This document shows, one piece after another, positions 49,050 through 55,963 of a stretch of DNA of 64,000 nucleotides. The position numbers and the translations under genes were made by a program. Within the stretch, counting starts at the first letter, position 1, and each line of letters begins with the position of its first letter. The DNA comes from Mesorhizobium sp. STM 4661 (GTDB lineage Bacteria; Pseudomonadota; Alphaproteobacteria; Rhizobiales; Rhizobiaceae), in NCBI RefSeq assembly GCF_000359125.1, contig NZ_CAAF010000054.1, forward strand, positions 1 to 64,000, in the 5' to 3' direction. The notes beneath the pieces are model-generated. The model was not told where the DNA came from. It made no database searches and worked only from the letters and a program-made list of their open reading frames with translations.

Positions 49050-49805
49050 CTATCCGCCAACCATCAGCTTGACGACTTCGTCATGGTTGGTCTCGGAGAT
49101 TTTGCGCTCACCGGCCTGGACGCCGCGCCGCAGCACGACGATGCGGTCGGATACGGCGAAGATATCCTGCAGATTGTGCGAGATGAAGATCACGCCTCGT
49201 CCTTGCGCCTTGAGCTGGTGGATGAGCGAAATGACCTTGCGCTGCTCGGGTACGCCGAGGGCGGCGGTCGGCTCGTCCATGATCAGGATTTGCGCGTCCC
49301 AATAGACGGCGCGGCCGATGGCGACAGCTTGGCGCTGCCCGCCGGAGAAATTGCTGACCGGGGCCTCGAGCCGGCTGACATGGAAGTCCAGTCTTCCCAT
49401 GGTCTGCTTGGCGGCGACGGCCATGGCCTTGCGATCGAGCACCGGCAGGAAGCCGAAAGCCTTGCGCATCGGTTCGCGGCCCAGGAAGATGTTGGCGCCG
49501 ATCGACAGATTGTCGGCGAGCGCCAGGTCCTGGTAGATCGTCTCGATGCCTTTTTCGCGCGCCTCCTGCGGCGTTGCGAAGGTCACCGGCTGCCCCCTGA
49601 GCAGGATCTCGCCGGCCGTCGGCTGAAAGACCCCCGATATCGCCTTGATCAGAGTGGTCTTGCCGGCGCCGTTGTCGCCGGCCAGCGCCACCACTTCACC
49701 CGGCCGTACAGCCATGGAAAAATCGTTGAGCGCCTGGACGGCGCCAAAATGCTTGGAAAGGTGTCGGACTTCGAGAAGCGGTGTGGTTTGTTCGGAACTA
49801 TTCAT
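49050..49805 (-). CDS. Sugar ABC transporter ATP-binding protein (FrcA-like)
   Basis: 251 residues with a single ATPase domain: Walker A GDNGAGKTTLIK, signature NFSGGQRQAVAIGRAVYWDA, Walker B ILIMDEPTAALG. One-domain CUT2 ATPases such as FrcA differ from the two-domain RbsA/XylG type. The ATG at MNSSEQTTPLLEVRHLSK overlaps the permease stop by 8 bases. Last gene of the importer operon; substrate as for the binding protein, unknown. Confidence 0.92.
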   Translation of the reverse strand: MNSSEQTTPLLEVRHLSKHFGAVQALNDFSMAVRPGEVVALAGDNGAGKTTLIKAISGVFQPTAGEILLRGQPVTFATPQEAREKGIETIYQDLALADNLSIGANIFLGREPMRKAFGFLPVLDRKAMAVAAKQTMGRLDFHVSRLEAPVSNFSGGQRQAVAIGRAVYWDAQILIMDEPTAALGVPEQRKVISLIHQLKAQGRGVIFISHNLQDIFAVSDRIVVLRRGVQAGERKISETNHDEVVKLMVGG

Positions 49806-50859
49806 CCTGGCGAGCTCCACTGAACCGGCGCTGCGCCTGGTCGATAAGGACGGAGATGATGATGACGAGGCCGACGGCGATGAACTGCCAGAACGGCTCG
49901 ACATTGACGAAGACCAGCCCGTACTGGATCACGGCGATCACCAATGCGCCGGCGACCGTGCCGAAGATCGTGCCGGATCCGCCGAACAGGCTGGCGCCGC
50001 CGATCACCACGGCCGCGACGCTGTCGAGCAGCAAGGGTTCGCCGGCCTGGGCGGCGCCCGCGGTGAAGCGCGCCGCGTAGAGCGCGCCGCCGAGGCCGGC
50101 GCACATCGCCGAAAGCATATAGAGGCGCAAGATGTGCCCCCTGATGTCGATGCCGGCGCGGCGCGCGGCCTGCACATTGGCGCCGATGGCGTAGTTGTGC
50201 TGGCCGAACCGGGTCTGGCTCAGGATGTAATGCATCACGACGACGAAGATTGCGGTGATCATGACAAGATAGGGCACGCCGTGGAACTTGCCGTTGCCGA
50301 GCAGCGCGAACCATGAATTCTGCACCGGCACCGTCGTGCCGCCGGCAAGGAGATAGGCAGCGCCGCGCGCCACGCCGAACATGCCGAGCGTGCCGATGAA
50401 GGGCGGAATTCTCAGCCGCGAGATCAGCAGGCCGTTGATGATGCCCGGCACGCCGGCAACAAGCACGGCGGCCAGAATACCTGCCAGCATTGCCAGTGGC
50501 AGCGGGATTGCGGCTCCCGCCATGTTCGTGGCGTGGGCGGCAACGACGGCCGCAAGACCCATGATGAAGCCGAGCGACAGGTCGATGCCTCCCGAAATGA
50601 TGACGAAGGTCTGTCCGGTCGCAAGCAGCAACGGTGCCACCGCAAATATCGCTATGGACTGCACGTTGAACGGATTGAGCACGAATGTCGCGCCGAAGGA
50701 TAGCCTCGACCAAACCTCGAAACAGATGATCAGACCGGCGAGGAACAGCCAGGCGCGCCCTTCGGCGATGCGCCCGATCCAGGTCCTGGCCGGATCACCG
50801 TGATCTGCCTGAGGAGCGACATGCGCTTCGCCTTGCTCGGTTGGTGATGTTGAAGTCAT
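49798..50859 (-). CDS. Sugar ABC transporter permease (FrcC/RbsC-like)
   Basis: 353 residues with about ten membrane helices of the BPD_transp_2 family. Typical segments are FVIISGGIDLSLGFIMGLAA, GVPGIINGLLISRLRIPPFI (with the LxIPxFIxTLG signature) and DSVAAVVIGGASLFGGSGTI. A hydrophilic N-terminus (about 30 residues) precedes the first helix. It forms the inner-membrane channel of a CUT2 importer with the adjacent ATPase and binding protein. Confidence 0.93.
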   Translation of the reverse strand: MTSTSPTEQGEAHVAPQADHGDPARTWIGRIAEGRAWLFLAGLIICFEVWSRLSFGATFVLNPFNVQSIAIFAVAPLLLATGQTFVIISGGIDLSLGFIMGLAAVVAAHATNMAGAAIPLPLAMLAGILAAVLVAGVPGIINGLLISRLRIPPFIGTLGMFGVARGAAYLLAGGTTVPVQNSWFALLGNGKFHGVPYLVMITAIFVVVMHYILSQTRFGQHNYAIGANVQAARRAGIDIRGHILRLYMLSAMCAGLGGALYAARFTAGAAQAGEPLLLDSVAAVVIGGASLFGGSGTIFGTVAGALVIAVIQYGLVFVNVEPFWQFIAVGLVIIISVLIDQAQRRFSGARQDE

Positions 50860-50960: not shown

Positions 50961-51941
50961 TCATTCGGAATAAAGGTACTTCGAGATGTTCGGATCCGCG
51001 ATGTTGGACTTGTCCATGATCGTGAAGCCGGTGCCGATCGCAACCGGGATCGAATTTCCGGTCAGATGGGCATAGGCCGACACGACGCCGAAATAGCCGA
51101 TTTCGGCGGGATGTTGGGCAATCGCAACGTCGACCAGGCCGGTGTTGATGTTGTCGACGATGCTGGTCGGCGCGTCGAACGCCACGACCTTGATGGTGCC
51201 GGTCTGCCCAGCTTGCTGGACGCCATTGGCAGCACCAAGCGCGGAGAACAGATTTGCGCCGAACACACCAACGAGATCGGGATTGCGCGCGAAGACAGCC
51301 TGCAGCTGCGAGGCGGCCTTGTTGGCGTCGTTGTCGTTGAACTGAGTTTCGAGAACGGTGATGCCGGGATGGTTGGCCGCCATCTCCTTCTTGAAGCCCT
51401 CTTCACGCTGATCGGTGGTCGAAATGCCGGGCTTGACGTTCGAAACGTAGACCTTGCCCTTGTCGCCTATGGCAGTGGCCAGTGCCCGCGCGGCGATCTC
51501 GCCGCCCAGAATGTTGTCCGACGCAATATAGGACAGCGGGAAATCCGCGTCGCCGGCGCCGGTCTGATAGACGCCGCTGCCGATGAACGTGTCGACGGTG
51601 ATGACAGGGATGCCGGCATCATTGGCCTTGCGCAGCGGCTCGACCAACTGAACCTTGTCGGTCGGCGCGATCAGGATCGCGTCCGGCTTCTTGGCGATGA
51701 CCGCGTCAAGCACCGGCACTTGGGTGACCGGGTTGAAGTCCGGGGCGCCTTGGAAAACCAGGTCCACGCCAAGCGCGTCGGCTGCCGCCTGGGCGCCTTT
51801 GCGCATGGTGATGTAGAAACCATCGGTCGTGAGACCGGGGATGAGCGCAATGGTGAACTTCTTGTCCTGCGCCAGAGCGGGTGTGACCAGCGCCGTTGCG
51901 CTGATGGCGAGAGCCGCGAGCGCGGCAACAATCTTCTTCAT
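50961..51941 (-). CDS. Sugar ABC transporter periplasmic substrate-binding protein
   Basis: 326 residues. The signal peptide (MKKIVAALAALAISATALVT, cleavage near PALAQ) leads to a type I periplasmic-binding fold: KFTIALIPGLTTDGFYITMR, then ILIAPTDKVQLVEPLRKAND and VVAFDAPTSIVDNINTGLVD. GAGGAGGA before the ATG fixes the start. It is of the ribose/fructose/inositol group; the ligand cannot be told from sequence. First gene of the importer operon, behind a motif shared with the aldolase operon. Confidence 0.93.
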   Translation of the reverse strand: MKKIVAALAALAISATALVTPALAQDKKFTIALIPGLTTDGFYITMRKGAQAAADALGVDLVFQGAPDFNPVTQVPVLDAVIAKKPDAILIAPTDKVQLVEPLRKANDAGIPVITVDTFIGSGVYQTGAGDADFPLSYIASDNILGGEIAARALATAIGDKGKVYVSNVKPGISTTDQREEGFKKEMAANHPGITVLETQFNDNDANKAASQLQAVFARNPDLVGVFGANLFSALGAANGVQQAGQTGTIKVVAFDAPTSIVDNINTGLVDVAIAQHPAEIGYFGVVSAYAHLTGNSIPVAIGTGFTIMDKSNIADPNISKYLYSE

Positions 51942-52378
51942 GACATCCTCCTCATTGTTGGCAGATTTGCCGTTTGCAAGTGACATTGGAATGGCCGTCA
52001 ATCGTTCAGGCATAAGGTGCCCGACGGCCGTGAAACGCCTGTTTGCTGTCGCGGGCGGCTTTCCTCCCAAGCGCCCTCCGGTCGATATGTCAGCCGGTCG
52101 AACCAAACCGGCACAAGAGCCGCAGCCCCCTTTGCTCGCCTCCGCGAGCCTCTGGGAAGTGCGTCGCCCGGCGTTCTTGCATGCCGGATCGTTCAGGTTG
52201 TAACACTTTGCAGAAATAAATTGCAACCCGGTTTTTCCGAGGTTGCGGCGTCGGACTTTTCAAACCGGACAGCATATGATGCGCTCCGCAGGGCCTCCAA
52301 GGCGAACTATTGCCCCGACCTCTCGGCGACACAACCGATTTTCTGGCAGTGGCTCGGGCCGGCCAACGGCATCTGCCT
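51942..52378. other. Importer operon promoter region
   Basis: 437 bases between the SorC regulator gene and the importer operon, both on the minus strand. No supported gene: an open minus-strand extension of the binding-protein frame has no signal or homology. It contains the proposed operator at 52197-52226, about 255 bases before the binding-protein start, so the transcript probably has a long leader, or the promoter lies nearer and was not recognised. Confidence 0.5.
52197..52226 (-). promoter_or_regulatory. Proposed SorC operator, importer copy
   Basis: On the minus strand it reads TTGCAATTTATTTCT then GCAAAGTGTTACAAC. It matches a second copy upstream of the aldolase operon at 24 of 30 positions, with TTGCAATT, TTTC, GCAA and GTGTTACA all identical. 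It has the same orientation relative to its downstream genes. GTTGyAA ends make it partly palindromic. The neighbouring SorC-type regulator is the likely binder. Confidence 0.68.
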
Positions 52379-53284
52379 CTATCGAGGCGCGAGAGCCTCG
52401 AGGATGGCCTGCGCCGTCATTGTATCCGTTATCAGGGCATTGATGAGCCTGGCGCGAGCGGCGCCGATGATTGCCGTCGCTTTCTCCGGCGACGCGGCAA
52501 CCCCGATCACCAGCGGCACCGCGCGAAGTTGTGCCGGCGACATCGCGATCATCCGGCTCTCACCTTCCCAGGGGATCAGCGCTCCTCCGGCATCGAAGTA
52601 ATGCCGGATGACGTCTCCCGCCGCATGGACCAAGGCCTGCTCGCTCAATGTGGCCGCGCTCGCCTCGGGCGGATTGATGGCGTGCGGCAGGCCGATGCCG
52701 ACGATCGCGACGTCGGTCCGGTCCCACAGCGCAACGGCATCGCGGATGGCCGCGTCGCCAAGGAAGACCTCGCGCAACTCGGTGGATGGCAGATAGGGCG
52801 CATGGATGAAATGCGGCGTTCCGCCCAATTCCTCGGCGGCAAGCCGCACGAACTCGTTGATCTGAAAATGCGGTGCATGCTGCTGCATACCGCCGGTGGC
52901 AGCCACGGTGTGGACGCCGGGAATACGCGGCAGGCCTGTCCGGATCACCTCGCGGACGGCGCGTCCCCAGCCGATGGCGACCACGGAGCCGGCCACCAGC
53001 TGTGCTTGCTTGAGCAATGCGCCAAGCGGCGCGGCAAGCGCCGTCAGTGCGCCCGCCGCCGGCGTTTCGATCACCGCCGCATCGGCAAGCCCCAGCCCAT
53101 CGATCAGCTGCCTGGTGATGTCCTCGGGCGTCGCCAGATCGAGAACCTCGATCCGCACGATCCCCTCGGCCCGTGCCCGCTGCAGCAGACGCGAAATCGT
53201 CGCCGTGGAGACGCCGAGCTGCCGTGCGATGTCGACCTGCGACATCTCAGCCTCATAGTGCAGCTTGGCGACCGTATGCAGCAT
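52379..53284 (-). CDS. SorC/DeoR-family sugar-binding transcriptional regulator
   Basis: 301 residues. The helix-turn-helix MSQVDIARQLGVSTATISRL lies near residues 14-33. A sugar-phosphate-binding domain follows (GWGRAVREVIRTGLPRIPGV, GIGLPHAINPPEAS). The family includes SorC, DeoR-like, EryD and CggR regulators that respond to phosphorylated sugars. The ATG at MLHTVAKLHYEAEM is the only standard start. It sits between the importer and the aldolase-kinase operon; the shared 30-bp motif suggests it controls both. Confidence 0.9.
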   Translation of the reverse strand: MLHTVAKLHYEAEMSQVDIARQLGVSTATISRLLQRARAEGIVRIEVLDLATPEDITRQLIDGLGLADAAVIETPAAGALTALAAPLGALLKQAQLVAGSVVAIGWGRAVREVIRTGLPRIPGVHTVAATGGMQQHAPHFQINEFVRLAAEELGGTPHFIHAPYLPSTELREVFLGDAAIRDAVALWDRTDVAIVGIGLPHAINPPEASAATLSEQALVHAAGDVIRHYFDAGGALIPWEGESRMIAMSPAQLRAVPLVIGVAASPEKATAIIGAARARLINALITDTMTAQAILEALAPR

Positions 53285-53327
53285 CGTGCGCGATGCGGTC
53301 GCGTCCTGGATCGGAGGGACAGACAGC

Positions 53328-53357
53328 TTGCAATTCCTTTCAGCAACGTGTTACACG
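53328..53357 (+). promoter_or_regulatory. Proposed SorC operator, aldolase copy
   Basis: Reads TTGCAATTCCTTTCA then GCAACGTGTTACACG, matching the importer copy at 24 of 30 positions. It lies 44 bases upstream of the divergent regulator start and 213 bases before the aldolase start, so it may also serve autoregulation. Confidence 0.68.
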
Positions 53358-53570
53358 AGCATAGACCGACGGGAGTTATCGCGCAAATTCGGCAAACTCG
53401 CAACTTGAGGTCATTGCGGACCACGGGTGTCGGCGAGGCCGCTTTTCTTGCGATCGATAGCGCATCAAAGCGGCAAAGATCTTCCCGCCGGCAGGCGGGC
53501 AAAACTGAACATTCTTGTTTCCACGGGATCCGCGCCTCGAAAAGCGGGCGCCAACATCGGACAGAAGACC

Positions 53571-54476
53571 ATGGCAAAGATGACCACCGCGGAGTTGCGC
53601 GGCTACCAGCAGATATGCGGCAAGGACGGGGCCATGGTGGCCATCGCCTGCGACCAGCGCGGCGGCATGCGGACCTTGCTGGCGTCGGATCCGGCCGAAC
53701 AGGCCAGGATCACCAATGACATGCTCGGCGACACCAAGTCGGACATCACGCGCTACCTCGCCAGTGCCGCGTCCTGTGTCTTGCTCGACCCGCTCTGCGC
53801 GGTGCCGCGGGTGGTCGACGAGGGCGTGCTGAATCGTGATACGGCGCTGCTCATCGGCCTCGACGCCTCCGGCTTCGACGTCTCGCCCGATGGCTACCGC
53901 CTGTCGCGCCTGGTTCCCGGCATCGACGCGCGCCGCGTCCGTGAATTGGGCGGCACGGGCGGCAAGATCATGGTCTATCTCAGGGCCGACAAGCCTGAAG
54001 CCAACGAGCACAACATCGCCATCCTGCGCCAGTGCATCGCCGACTTCGGGCAAGAGGACCTGCTGCTCGTCGTCGAGTTCCTGACCTACCAGATCGAAGG
54101 GGAAAGCCCCGAAGACTATGCGGCCAAAACGCCCTGGCTTGTCGAAGAGGGCACCCGGATTTCGTTGGAGTGCGGAGCAAAGGTGCTGAAGCTTCCTTAC
54201 CCTGGAACGCCCGAAGCTTGCGCCAATATCACCAGAATGGCCGGCGACGTGCCATGGGCGGTGCTTTCCGCCGGCGTCAACCACGCGACCTTCCTCGGCC
54301 AGGTCGAGATCGCCATGCAGAACGGTGCGTCGGGCGTCATCGCCGGCCGTTCCCTGTGGAAGGACTGCATCTCGCTCGACCGTGACATTCAGCGCGAAAG
54401 GCTTAAGACCATCGCAGTGCCGCGATTGCGCGAAATCCAGGCTGTGATCGGGCACTACCGGCAGAAGGCCGCCTGA
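53571..54476 (+). CDS. LacD/YihT-like class I aldolase
   Basis: 301 residues of the DeoC/LacD aldolase group, which cleave ketose phosphates such as tagatose 1,6-bisphosphate or 6-deoxy-6-sulfofructose 1-phosphate by a Schiff-base lysine. The lysine candidate is in ECGAKVLKLPYPGTPEACAN. Also typical are MVAIACDQRGGMRTLLASDP and NGASGVIAGRSLWKDCISLD. ATG at MAKMTTAELRGYQQI, with a possible second start three codons on. It precedes the ROK-fusion kinase in one operon. The true substrate is not known. Confidence 0.88.
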   Translation: MAKMTTAELRGYQQICGKDGAMVAIACDQRGGMRTLLASDPAEQARITNDMLGDTKSDITRYLASAASCVLLDPLCAVPRVVDEGVLNRDTALLIGLDASGFDVSPDGYRLSRLVPGIDARRVRELGGTGGKIMVYLRADKPEANEHNIAILRQCIADFGQEDLLLVVEFLTYQIEGESPEDYAAKTPWLVEEGTRISLECGAKVLKLPYPGTPEACANITRMAGDVPWAVLSAGVNHATFLGQVEIAMQNGASGVIAGRSLWKDCISLDRDIQRERLKTIAVPRLREIQAVIGHYRQKAA

Positions 54477-54511
54477 TATCCGCGTTTGATCACTGGCACG
54501 TGCAGGACGTC

Positions 54512-55963
54512 ATGCCTCTCAGCATAGGAATCGACATCGGCGGCACCAATTTGCGTGCCGCCCGCATTTCCGGCACGGGCGAAATCCTCGACCGCATTTC
54601 CGAGAAGAGCGCGCCGGACCCGGAGCTGGTTCTCTCCCGGATCGCCGATATGGTGCGCCGGCTCGATACCCCCGGGGTTGCAGCCATCGGCATCGGCGTT
54701 CCCGGCCGCGTCGATGCGCGGCGCCGCACGGTCCTGTCCGGCGGCTATGTCAACCTCGCCTCGGTCGCATTGGCGCAGCGGCTGGAAGACACGGCCGGCA
54801 AGCCCGTCGTCGTCGACAATGACTGCAACATGGCGCTGGTCGCCGAAATGGCTCTCGGCGCCGGCCGAGGCCATGACAGCATCGTCATGTTCACGATCGG
54901 GACCGGCATTGGCGGCGCCGTCGCCCAGAACCGGCAGATCATGCGTGGCCGGGCAACGGCAGGCCAGCTCGGCCATATCACCGTCGACGTTAACGGCGAA
55001 ACCTGCGCCTGCGGCCGGCGCGGTTGCGTTGAAACCACCAGCTCGGGCACGGCGCTTGGCCGTCACATCGCGCGGGCAGGCTTAGGTCCTGACGTTTCGG
55101 TCGACCGGCTTTTTGCCCGCGACTTGGCCGGCGACATCCAGGCGCGCGGCATACTGGAAGCCTGGGCCAGGCCGCTGCGTGCCGCAATCGATACGACCGT
55201 TGCCGTGCTCGACCCCGATCTGGTTCTGCTTGGCGGCGGCCTTGGCCGGGCGGCGCACAAGGCGCTTGCCTGCGCGCCGGCGCTGGCGCCCTGGTATCAA
55301 TGCAAGGTGGAACCGGCACAGCTCGGCGACGACGCCGGCGTGATCGGCGCCGGCCTGCAGGCATTGGCGGCGGAGGCGGGCACGACACAGGCGCCGGCAT
55401 CGCCGTCTGCCCAACCCGGCCGTGCCAGGCGGGCCGTGCTCGTCAATGGTATTCCGGCCAGCGGCAAGAGCACCGTTTCGCGCGGCATCGCCGACCGCAT
55501 GGGATGGCCATTGCTTGCGCTCGATACGGTCAAGAATCCATTCCTCGAAGTGCTCGGCGGCGGCGACCGCGAGTTCAACCGCACGCTCGGCCGCGCCAGC
55601 TACCAGGCGATCTGGTCGGTCGTCGGCGAGGCGCCCGCTGGCACAACCGTGGTCGTCGACGCCTGGTTCGGCTTCCAGCCGCGCCAGCTTCTCGAGGACC
55701 ATTTGCGAAAGGCAGGTGTTGAACAGACCGCCGAAATCTGGTGCCACGCGCCCGGCGAGGTTCTTGCCGAGCGCTATCGCGCCCGGCTCGACCAGCGTCC
55801 AGCCGGTCATCCGGGTGCGGCCTATATCCCCGAGCTGATCGAATTGGCCAGGCGTGCCGAGCCGCTGCGGCGTGGACCGCTTTTCGACGTCGATACGACG
55901 AAGCCGATCGACTTTGATGCGATCACGGAATGGCTGAAGGTCGCGATTGAGGGCAGCAATTGA
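54512..55963 (+). CDS. ROK-family sugar kinase fused to a P-loop kinase domain
   Basis: 483 residues. The first 290 or so form a ROK kinase: SIGIDIGGTNLRAARISGTG for ATP, GTGIGGAVAQNRQIMRG, and the zinc-motif CACGRRGCVETTSSG. After a Pro/Ala linker a second kinase-like domain begins with Walker A NGIPASGKSTVSRGIADRMG (about 311-330). It continues to the C-terminus, with RYRARLDQRPAGHPGA as a possible LID. The second domain resembles gluconate or zeta-toxin-type kinases. It may phosphorylate a second position before aldol cleavage. ATG 54512 is preferred over GTG 54500. Confidence 0.87.
   Translation: MPLSIGIDIGGTNLRAARISGTGEILDRISEKSAPDPELVLSRIADMVRRLDTPGVAAIGIGVPGRVDARRRTVLSGGYVNLASVALAQRLEDTAGKPVVVDNDCNMALVAEMALGAGRGHDSIVMFTIGTGIGGAVAQNRQIMRGRATAGQLGHITVDVNGETCACGRRGCVETTSSGTALGRHIARAGLGPDVSVDRLFARDLAGDIQARGILEAWARPLRAAIDTTVAVLDPDLVLLGGGLGRAAHKALACAPALAPWYQCKVEPAQLGDDAGVIGAGLQALAAEAGTTQAPASPSAQPGRARRAVLVNGIPASGKSTVSRGIADRMGWPLLALDTVKNPFLEVLGGGDREFNRTLGRASYQAIWSVVGEAPAGTTVVVDAWFGFQPRQLLEDHLRKAGVEQTAEIWCHAPGEVLAERYRARLDQRPAGHPGAAYIPELIELARRAEPLRRGPLFDVDTTKPIDFDAITEWLKVAIEGSN

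Follow-up and report, generated by a model that had tools for sequence, protein, structure and literature searches.

Genes and features of the locus

The window, i.e., the whole 64,000-nucleotide stretch of Mesorhizobium sp. STM 4661 DNA that was analysed, contains a gene cluster in which a SorC/DeoR-type regulator gene, sorC, is divergent from an aldolase-kinase operon on the plus strand and is followed downstream, on its own minus strand, by the genes of an importer (Table 1). The SorC protein has an N-terminal HTH, recognised by several models over residues 2-50, and then a SorC sugar-binding effector domain (Pfam Sugar-bind PF04198, residues 55-296, E 2.3e-42), which is the architecture of the SorC/DeoR family. 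Its best PDB matches, both over residues 4-296, are 2w48 and the DeoR structure 8r7y. The best of these by sequence is 2w48 (E 2.8e-34), named a sorbitol operon regulator in PDB, which we take to be the Klebsiella sorbose regulator. The latter SorC governs ketohexose use, with target genes other than those found here.

The structural model of the importer sugar-binding protein has a pLDDT of 77. The aldolase is a member of the wider DeoC/LacD family, to which LacD and the sulfofructose-1-phosphate aldolase YihT also belong, and its PDB matches include LacD-type and YihT structures. Its matches to models of tagatose 1,6-diphosphate aldolase fall under the model cut-offs, with 64.7 bits vs 432.2 for the LacD tagatose-1,6-bisphosphate aldolase equivalog TIGR01232 and 152.9 vs 184 for PRK12858. 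The fused kinase matches PF00480 (2.5e-53) and PF13671 (1.7e-08). The model of its P-loop domain (pLDDT 89) has 2rhm as best fold match (Z 22.1), and a fold search with this model returned P-loop small-molecule kinases alone, with no substrate indicated.

Table 1. Positions of genes and putative control elements, numbered from the first base of the window
Feature	Position	Strand	Remarks
Importer ATPase	49050..49904	-	domain/profile match
Importer permease	49798..50859	-	BPD_transp_2
Importer sugar-binding protein	50961..51941	-	79-81% identical to PDB 5dkv; ATG 51941 after GAGGAGG
Operator copy 1 (putative), TTGCAATTTATTTCTGCAAAGTGTTACA	52199..52226	-	upstream of importer operon
sorC, SorC/DeoR-type regulator	52379..53326	-	proposed CTG start 53324-53326, 315 residues, replacing ATG 53284
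Operator copy 2 (putative), TTGCAATTCCTTTCAGCAACGTGTTACA	53328..53355	+	between sorC (-) and aldolase operon (+)
Candidate sorC promoter	53375..53403	-	TTGCGA (53398-53403), 17-base spacer, GATAAC (53375-53380)
Class I aldolase, DeoC/LacD family	53571..54476	+	PF01791 1.3e-16
Fused sugar kinase	54500..55963	+	ROK domain residues 9-285; P-loop kinase domain about 310-487

A rare element in two copies

A 28-base core, TTGCAATTNNTTTCNGCAANGTGTTACA, occurs twice in the window, once between sorC and the importer (copy 1) and once between sorC and the aldolase (copy 2). An earlier note on this DNA had described the pair as a shared 30-base motif, each copy pointing to its own operon, and a recount bears this out: the minus strand at 52197-52226 and the plus strand at 53328-53357 are identical at 8+4+4+8 = 24 of 30 bases, and both copies, each beginning with TTGCAA, have the same orientation relative to their operon, the importer in one case and the aldolase in the other. 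The ATG of the binding-protein gene (51941, minus strand) is separated from copy 1 by 257 bases, and the aldolase ATG (53571, plus strand) lies 243 bases beyond the beginning of copy 2.

The same note considered a chance origin very unlikely, in agreement with which the 28-base pattern, searched with up to three mismatches, matches the window only at these two places, exactly in both, and matches none of 100 dinucleotide shuffles of it. The scan for further copies that the note had called for, run with up to three mismatches over the whole genome (6,547,395 bases, 89 contigs), returned the same two matches and no third copy, with no match for the reversed control. A looser pattern (C replaced by M at two places, plus two more N) still found just these two, its own reversed control matching once in the genome. 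A dispersed repeat, which the note had named as what many unrelated copies would mean, is thereby ruled out. Both genome copies lie inside the cluster, next to the local operons and the regulator gene, as is characteristic of an autoregulated local sugar regulon. Among the titles and abstract beginnings listed in searches of open-licence PMC literature, none was about this operator or gene cluster.

The start and promoter of sorC

According to the earlier note, copy 2 lies 44 bases upstream of the SorC gene; the arithmetic holds for the ATG at 53284, but this ATG is probably not where the gene starts. Read in the sorC frame, a TAA stop lies within the operator, after which come 8 codons, a CTG, 13 codons and then ATG 53284, and the minus strand of copy 2 carries a Shine-Dalgarno sequence, GAAAGGA. 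In 112 distinct SorC 5' regions drawn from 145 loci, the first start-like codon 4-10 bases past the Shine-Dalgarno sequence is CTG in 99, ATG in 5, GTG in 3 and TTG in 2, with none in 3. Among the 97 regions with GAAAGG[AT], it is CTG in 92, GTG in 2, TTG and ATG in 1 each, and other in 1 (L074, with an ATG slightly downstream). The variants found at the aligned place are themselves start codons (ATG, GTG or TTG), and seven of the 112 regions have no in-frame ATG, GTG or TTG through the position of ATG 53284. Additionally, in 47 of the 49 regions whose SorC is at least 84% identical (TTG replaces CTG in one), the 13 codons after CTG show 0.161, 0.062 and 0.356 differences per site at codon positions 1, 2 and 3; in the 39 bases upstream of the operator the values are 0.42-0.48 at all three positions. 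This codon-position pattern is that of translated sequence and, together with the Shine-Dalgarno spacing, indicates that sorC probably starts at CTG 53324-53326, one base from copy 2, and not at ATG 53284. With this start, copy 2 would abut sorC and contain its Shine-Dalgarno sequence. The CC of copy 2, which belongs to the Shine-Dalgarno sequence, is invariant in the genus; the corresponding bases of copy 1 are mostly TA or TC.

The conserved CUG start is the most surprising feature of the locus and an unusual one. Among the titles and abstract beginnings listed in a search of open-licence PMC literature, none dealt with a regulator that has a conserved CTG start. Gene-finding software that accepts ATG, GTG and TTG alone would place the start of sorC wrongly.

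A candidate sorC promoter of the form TTGC[AG][AG]-N17-[GT]ATAA[CT] is present in 48 of the 49 regions with SorC at least 84% identical and in 10 of the 63 others. It lies 16-19 bases before the operator, and relative to it copy 2 falls at about +13 to +41 and covers the Shine-Dalgarno sequence. A stricter scan of 51850-53650 with the E. coli consensus returned no promoter, including none for the aldolase or the importer.

Conservation, symmetry and spread of the site

Within the genus (54 distinct sequences, mean majority identity, 60-base flanks), copy 1 is conserved at 0.97 vs 0.59 and 0.55 in its flanks, and copy 2 at 0.98 vs 0.89 on the coding, sorC side and 0.73 on the other. Outside the 28 bases of copy 1, conservation drops sharply save for a GAAA-N-ACC stretch 4-11 bases before its TTGCAA, conserved at 0.81-1.00 at seven of eight positions in the genus. 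A 28-base site does not account for this stretch, which may represent a longer operator, part of a promoter or a terminator after sorC.

The site is also an imperfect dyad centred on base 15, a feature overlooked in the earlier note. Pairs about this base are complementary at 0.66 in 17 of the 26 distinct sorC-side versions, and at 0.61 in 17 importer-side sites, which were chosen with a matrix built from sorC-side sites and are thus biased to the left arm, not to the AATTTC arm. Column shuffles give 0.28 on the sorC side and 0.29 on the importer side, none of 2000 reaching the observed pairing, and other centres tried give at most 0.39. The window's own two copies pair at 0.58, a value that 20 of 2000 shuffles equal or exceed. 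The importer site of L136 and L137, GAAATT-N2-TTTC-A-GGAA-N2-AATTTC, displays the dyad directly.

Scored over 23 positions, the site is present at 18 or more of them in 99 of the 112 SorC 5' regions, in the 26 versions mentioned above. Ten of the 13 regions without it carry it elsewhere, either in the locus (L077, L078, L080, L082-L085, L079 and L158) or, as in L066, whose SorC (70% identity) has no adjoining site, elsewhere in the genome; at L087-L089, with SorC at 50% identity or less, no site was found. On the importer side, 41 rows with approximate gene starts were each scanned against 30 first-order Markov resamplings, and in 35 a diverged site beats all 30. Among these, L187 is a locus-end artefact, its reported site being that of sorC, and two rows (L062 and L063) come from Mesorhizobium; at L086, L088 and L089 the importer and sorC share one intergenic region, so that these are not separate importer sites. 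The remaining importer-side sites, at a distance of 31-139 bases from the approximate gene start, recur in other genera. No importer-side site rose above the resamplings in Kaistia (L138, L141, L142 and L154) or at L087 and L188.

Two further observations concern individual stretches. In many relatives, the GAAA-N-ACC stretch (window 52227-52245) is part of a short inverted repeat, CTCGG-AAAAA-CCGAG. The aldolase had seemed to be missing at loci L077-L085, an impression that was rejected once the genomes containing them proved to encode it; in two cases (L225 and L227) it lies further along on the same strand.

Co-occurrence of the site with SorC

In a sample of 146 genomes of the genus (site with up to three mismatches, SorC ortholog at E 1e-40), 63 have the site and 62 a SorC ortholog, with both in 62, the site only in 1, SorC only in 0 and neither in 83. 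The site is present in two copies in 60 genomes and in one copy in three (G037, G060 and G078). G078 is the sole genus genome with the site and without SorC; its site has three mismatches, and none of the six proteins compared has a match above 60 bits in the 13 kb stretch around it. In G037 (L189) the importer, SorC and aldolase are kept, and no importer-side operator reaches 18 of the 23 positions.

Across the order (397 genomes, SorC at E 1e-55, loosened site pattern), SorC and the site each occur in 29 genomes, both in 26, SorC only in 3, the site only in 3 and neither in 365. The three SorC-only genomes (G224, G258 and G325) have orthologs of 46, 46 and 50% identity, and the three site-only genomes (G270, G317 and G374) all have three-mismatch sites with no cluster gene in the 1.7-3 kb examined around them. 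The aldolase is found in 33 of the 397 genomes, including all 29 with SorC, and because of this the co-occurrence of site and SorC is confounded with that of the whole cluster: just four genomes of the order sample separate SorC from the aldolase. Among the aldolase-bearing genomes, the site accompanies 26 of 29 with SorC vs 0 of 4 without (one-sided Fisher 9e-4, calculated by hand with relatedness ignored and thus merely a guide, as the genomes are related). In these four (G155, G212, G447 and G521), the 9.5-14 kb around the aldolase contain nothing that matches SorC at more than 45 bits. Two of them (L221:8355-9062 and L224:5042-5749, both on the minus strand) carry, beside the aldolase, a second ROK kinase gene and a gene that by eye appears to encode a ribulose- or psicose-phosphate epimerase.

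Separation of the site from sorC

One genome of the collection, G231, separates the site from the regulator gene. Its SorC (70% identical) is encoded on contig 15, where the surrounding 14 kb contain no site, and on contig 24 a site with no mismatch to the loosened pattern lies 40 bases upstream of the aldolase gene, which is followed by the kinase. On contig 8 of the same genome, a one-mismatch site lies about 400 bases upstream of the gene for a different sugar-binding protein, and in G292 a corresponding extra site precedes a gene similar to the latter. The G292 binding protein matches PDB 4rya (named sorbitol-binding, 1e-167), and an adjoining dehydrogenase matches 5jo9 (named ribitol 2-dehydrogenase, 4e-96). 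The displaced and extra sites of these two genomes suggest that the site can act in trans and that the regulon can expand by a polyol branch. At locus L184 (5254-8032), extra copies of the operator that score 23 and 19 of 23 positions lie between a ribitol/sorbitol-type dehydrogenase gene and a polyol-type importer gene.

Comparison with DeoR-type operators

Regulators of the SorC/DeoR family characteristically bind, as tetramers, operators made of two half-sites. SorC and DeoR share the HTH SorC/DeoR architecture, and the site, like DeoR-type operators, has TTGAA-type half-sites in inverted orientation. For Bacillus subtilis DeoR, the crystallised half-operator is ATTGAACAAAATTTCAAT, and R39 contacts operator bases (PMC11229326). 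The site, TTGMAA-N4-TTTCWG, resembles the DeoR half-site TTGAAC-N4-TTTCAA (PMC11229326). In an alignment in which DeoR R34 and R39 were fitted to chain residues 39 and 44 (an inferred numbering), R39 falls on R32 of the present SorC, a residue that does not vary among 10 aligned SorC proteins, and the second contact, R34, falls on T27. The half-site likeness and the kept arginine suggest that the site would work like a DeoR-type operator. The dra-nupC-pdp operator of DeoR, made up of a left and a right half, covers 39 bp between -60 and -21 of its target, and that of CggR, at 45 bp, is also longer than the present site (PMC11229326). In the present locus 28 bp are conserved as a unit, with symmetry about base 15, and the two copies would serve two operons and sorC.

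Proposed mechanism and alternatives

We consider it likely, with a probability of roughly 0.87, that the 28-base element serves as operator for the SorC-type protein whose gene lies between the two copies, and that it defines a local regulon. This reading draws on computed evidence of several kinds: position, rarity, dyad, phylogenetic footprint, co-occurrence with SorC, an aldolase-side site where SorC lies elsewhere, and likeness to DeoR. The idea of a SorC operator with a two-operon regulon, already put forward in the earlier note, thus gains support from co-occurrence across genus and order, from the site at the aldolase in a genome with SorC on a separate contig, and from its absence in the four sampled genomes with an aldolase and without this SorC; what had to be amended is the overlooked dyad and the probably misplaced sorC start.

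Beyond the operator itself, we infer binding by SorC, repression rather than activation, and a sugar phosphate as inducer. A SorC dimer or tetramer would bind at the importer operon (copy 1) and in the region where sorC and the aldolase operon diverge (copy 2), and in the absence of the sugar it would keep import, the aldolase and kinase, and its own synthesis low. Once a ketohexose has been taken up and the kinase has phosphorylated it, a sugar phosphate would occupy the effector domain of SorC, leading to release of the DNA. Given where copy 2 lies relative to the candidate sorC promoter and Shine-Dalgarno sequence, autorepression would act by blocking initiation or early elongation.

A different regulator, global or encoded elsewhere, might bind the site and merely share its genomes with SorC, as could happen if site, SorC and cluster travel together, which the presence of the aldolase in every SorC genome of the order would allow. 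We regard this as quite improbable, since a global regulator would be expected to have further copies in the genome, since the four genomes with an aldolase and without such a SorC also lack the site, and since the half-site and the DNA-contact arginine fit the SorC/DeoR subfamily. Somewhat more weight, though still a minor share, belongs to the possibility that the element is part of a promoter (TTGCAA as -35, a TTACA region as -10) or an activator site, with SorC as activator. The common orientation to the operons, the -35-like TTGCAA with which both copies begin and the failure to find importer and aldolase promoters elsewhere fit this possibility; the dyad, the placement of the element downstream of the candidate sorC promoter and a standard promoter scan that finds nothing within the element speak against it.

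It is also conceivable that copy 2 is conserved solely as the ribosome-binding and start region of sorC, whose Shine-Dalgarno sequence it holds and whose start it abuts, copy 1 being a dispersed or duplicated piece. This seems very improbable, as copy 1 lies outside genes, is equally conserved and has variable flanks, and as G231 has a site at the aldolase without sorC. Constraint from coding or ribosome binding alone was rejected on the strength of copy 1 and of G231. Operator and start region may nonetheless be one thing at copy 2: we tentatively entertain, at rather less than even odds, that operator, Shine-Dalgarno sequence and conserved CUG start form a single composite control element of this SorC subfamily, preserved from Mesorhizobium to Erwinia and Brenneria. 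If so, the same 30-odd bases would set transcription of both sorC and the catabolic genes, and the weak start codon would also set the dose of the repressor. With the operator reading, an uncharacterised SorC subfamily of alpha- and gammaproteobacteria would gain a concrete candidate operator and regulon.

Sugar and metabolism

The ligand of 5dkv is presumably alpha-D-tagatopyranose (D-tagatose). The sugar of the regulon is probably a ketohexose, for which D-tagatose is the best guess, with even chances of being correct. No LacC-type kinase was seen in the cluster; in its place stand the ROK and P-loop kinase domains, elsewhere replaced by separate genes or a PTS. In Acidisoma (L158) the ROK and P-loop kinases are separate genes, and in Brenneria (L149) the divergent genes encode the aldolase, the P-loop kinase alone, a PTS EIIA and an ascorbate-type EIIC; in the 12.9 kb locus neither the ROK domain nor this ABC importer has a match. 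A PTS couples import to phosphorylation. By analogy with Brenneria, where a system that imports and phosphorylates together goes without ROK, the ROK domain would probably add the first phosphate and the P-loop domain the next one, so that the aldolase receives a ketose bisphosphate. This would link one ketohexose import system to a LacD-type aldolase and to a double kinase made of ROK and P-loop domains. In other work, a tagatose-bisphosphate aldolase appears in a list of metal-regulated genes (PMC3668242); we draw no connection from it to the present locus. In a Sodalis locus, a PfkA-type 6-phosphofructokinase gene (L139:2480-3472, minus strand) lies in the same gene run.
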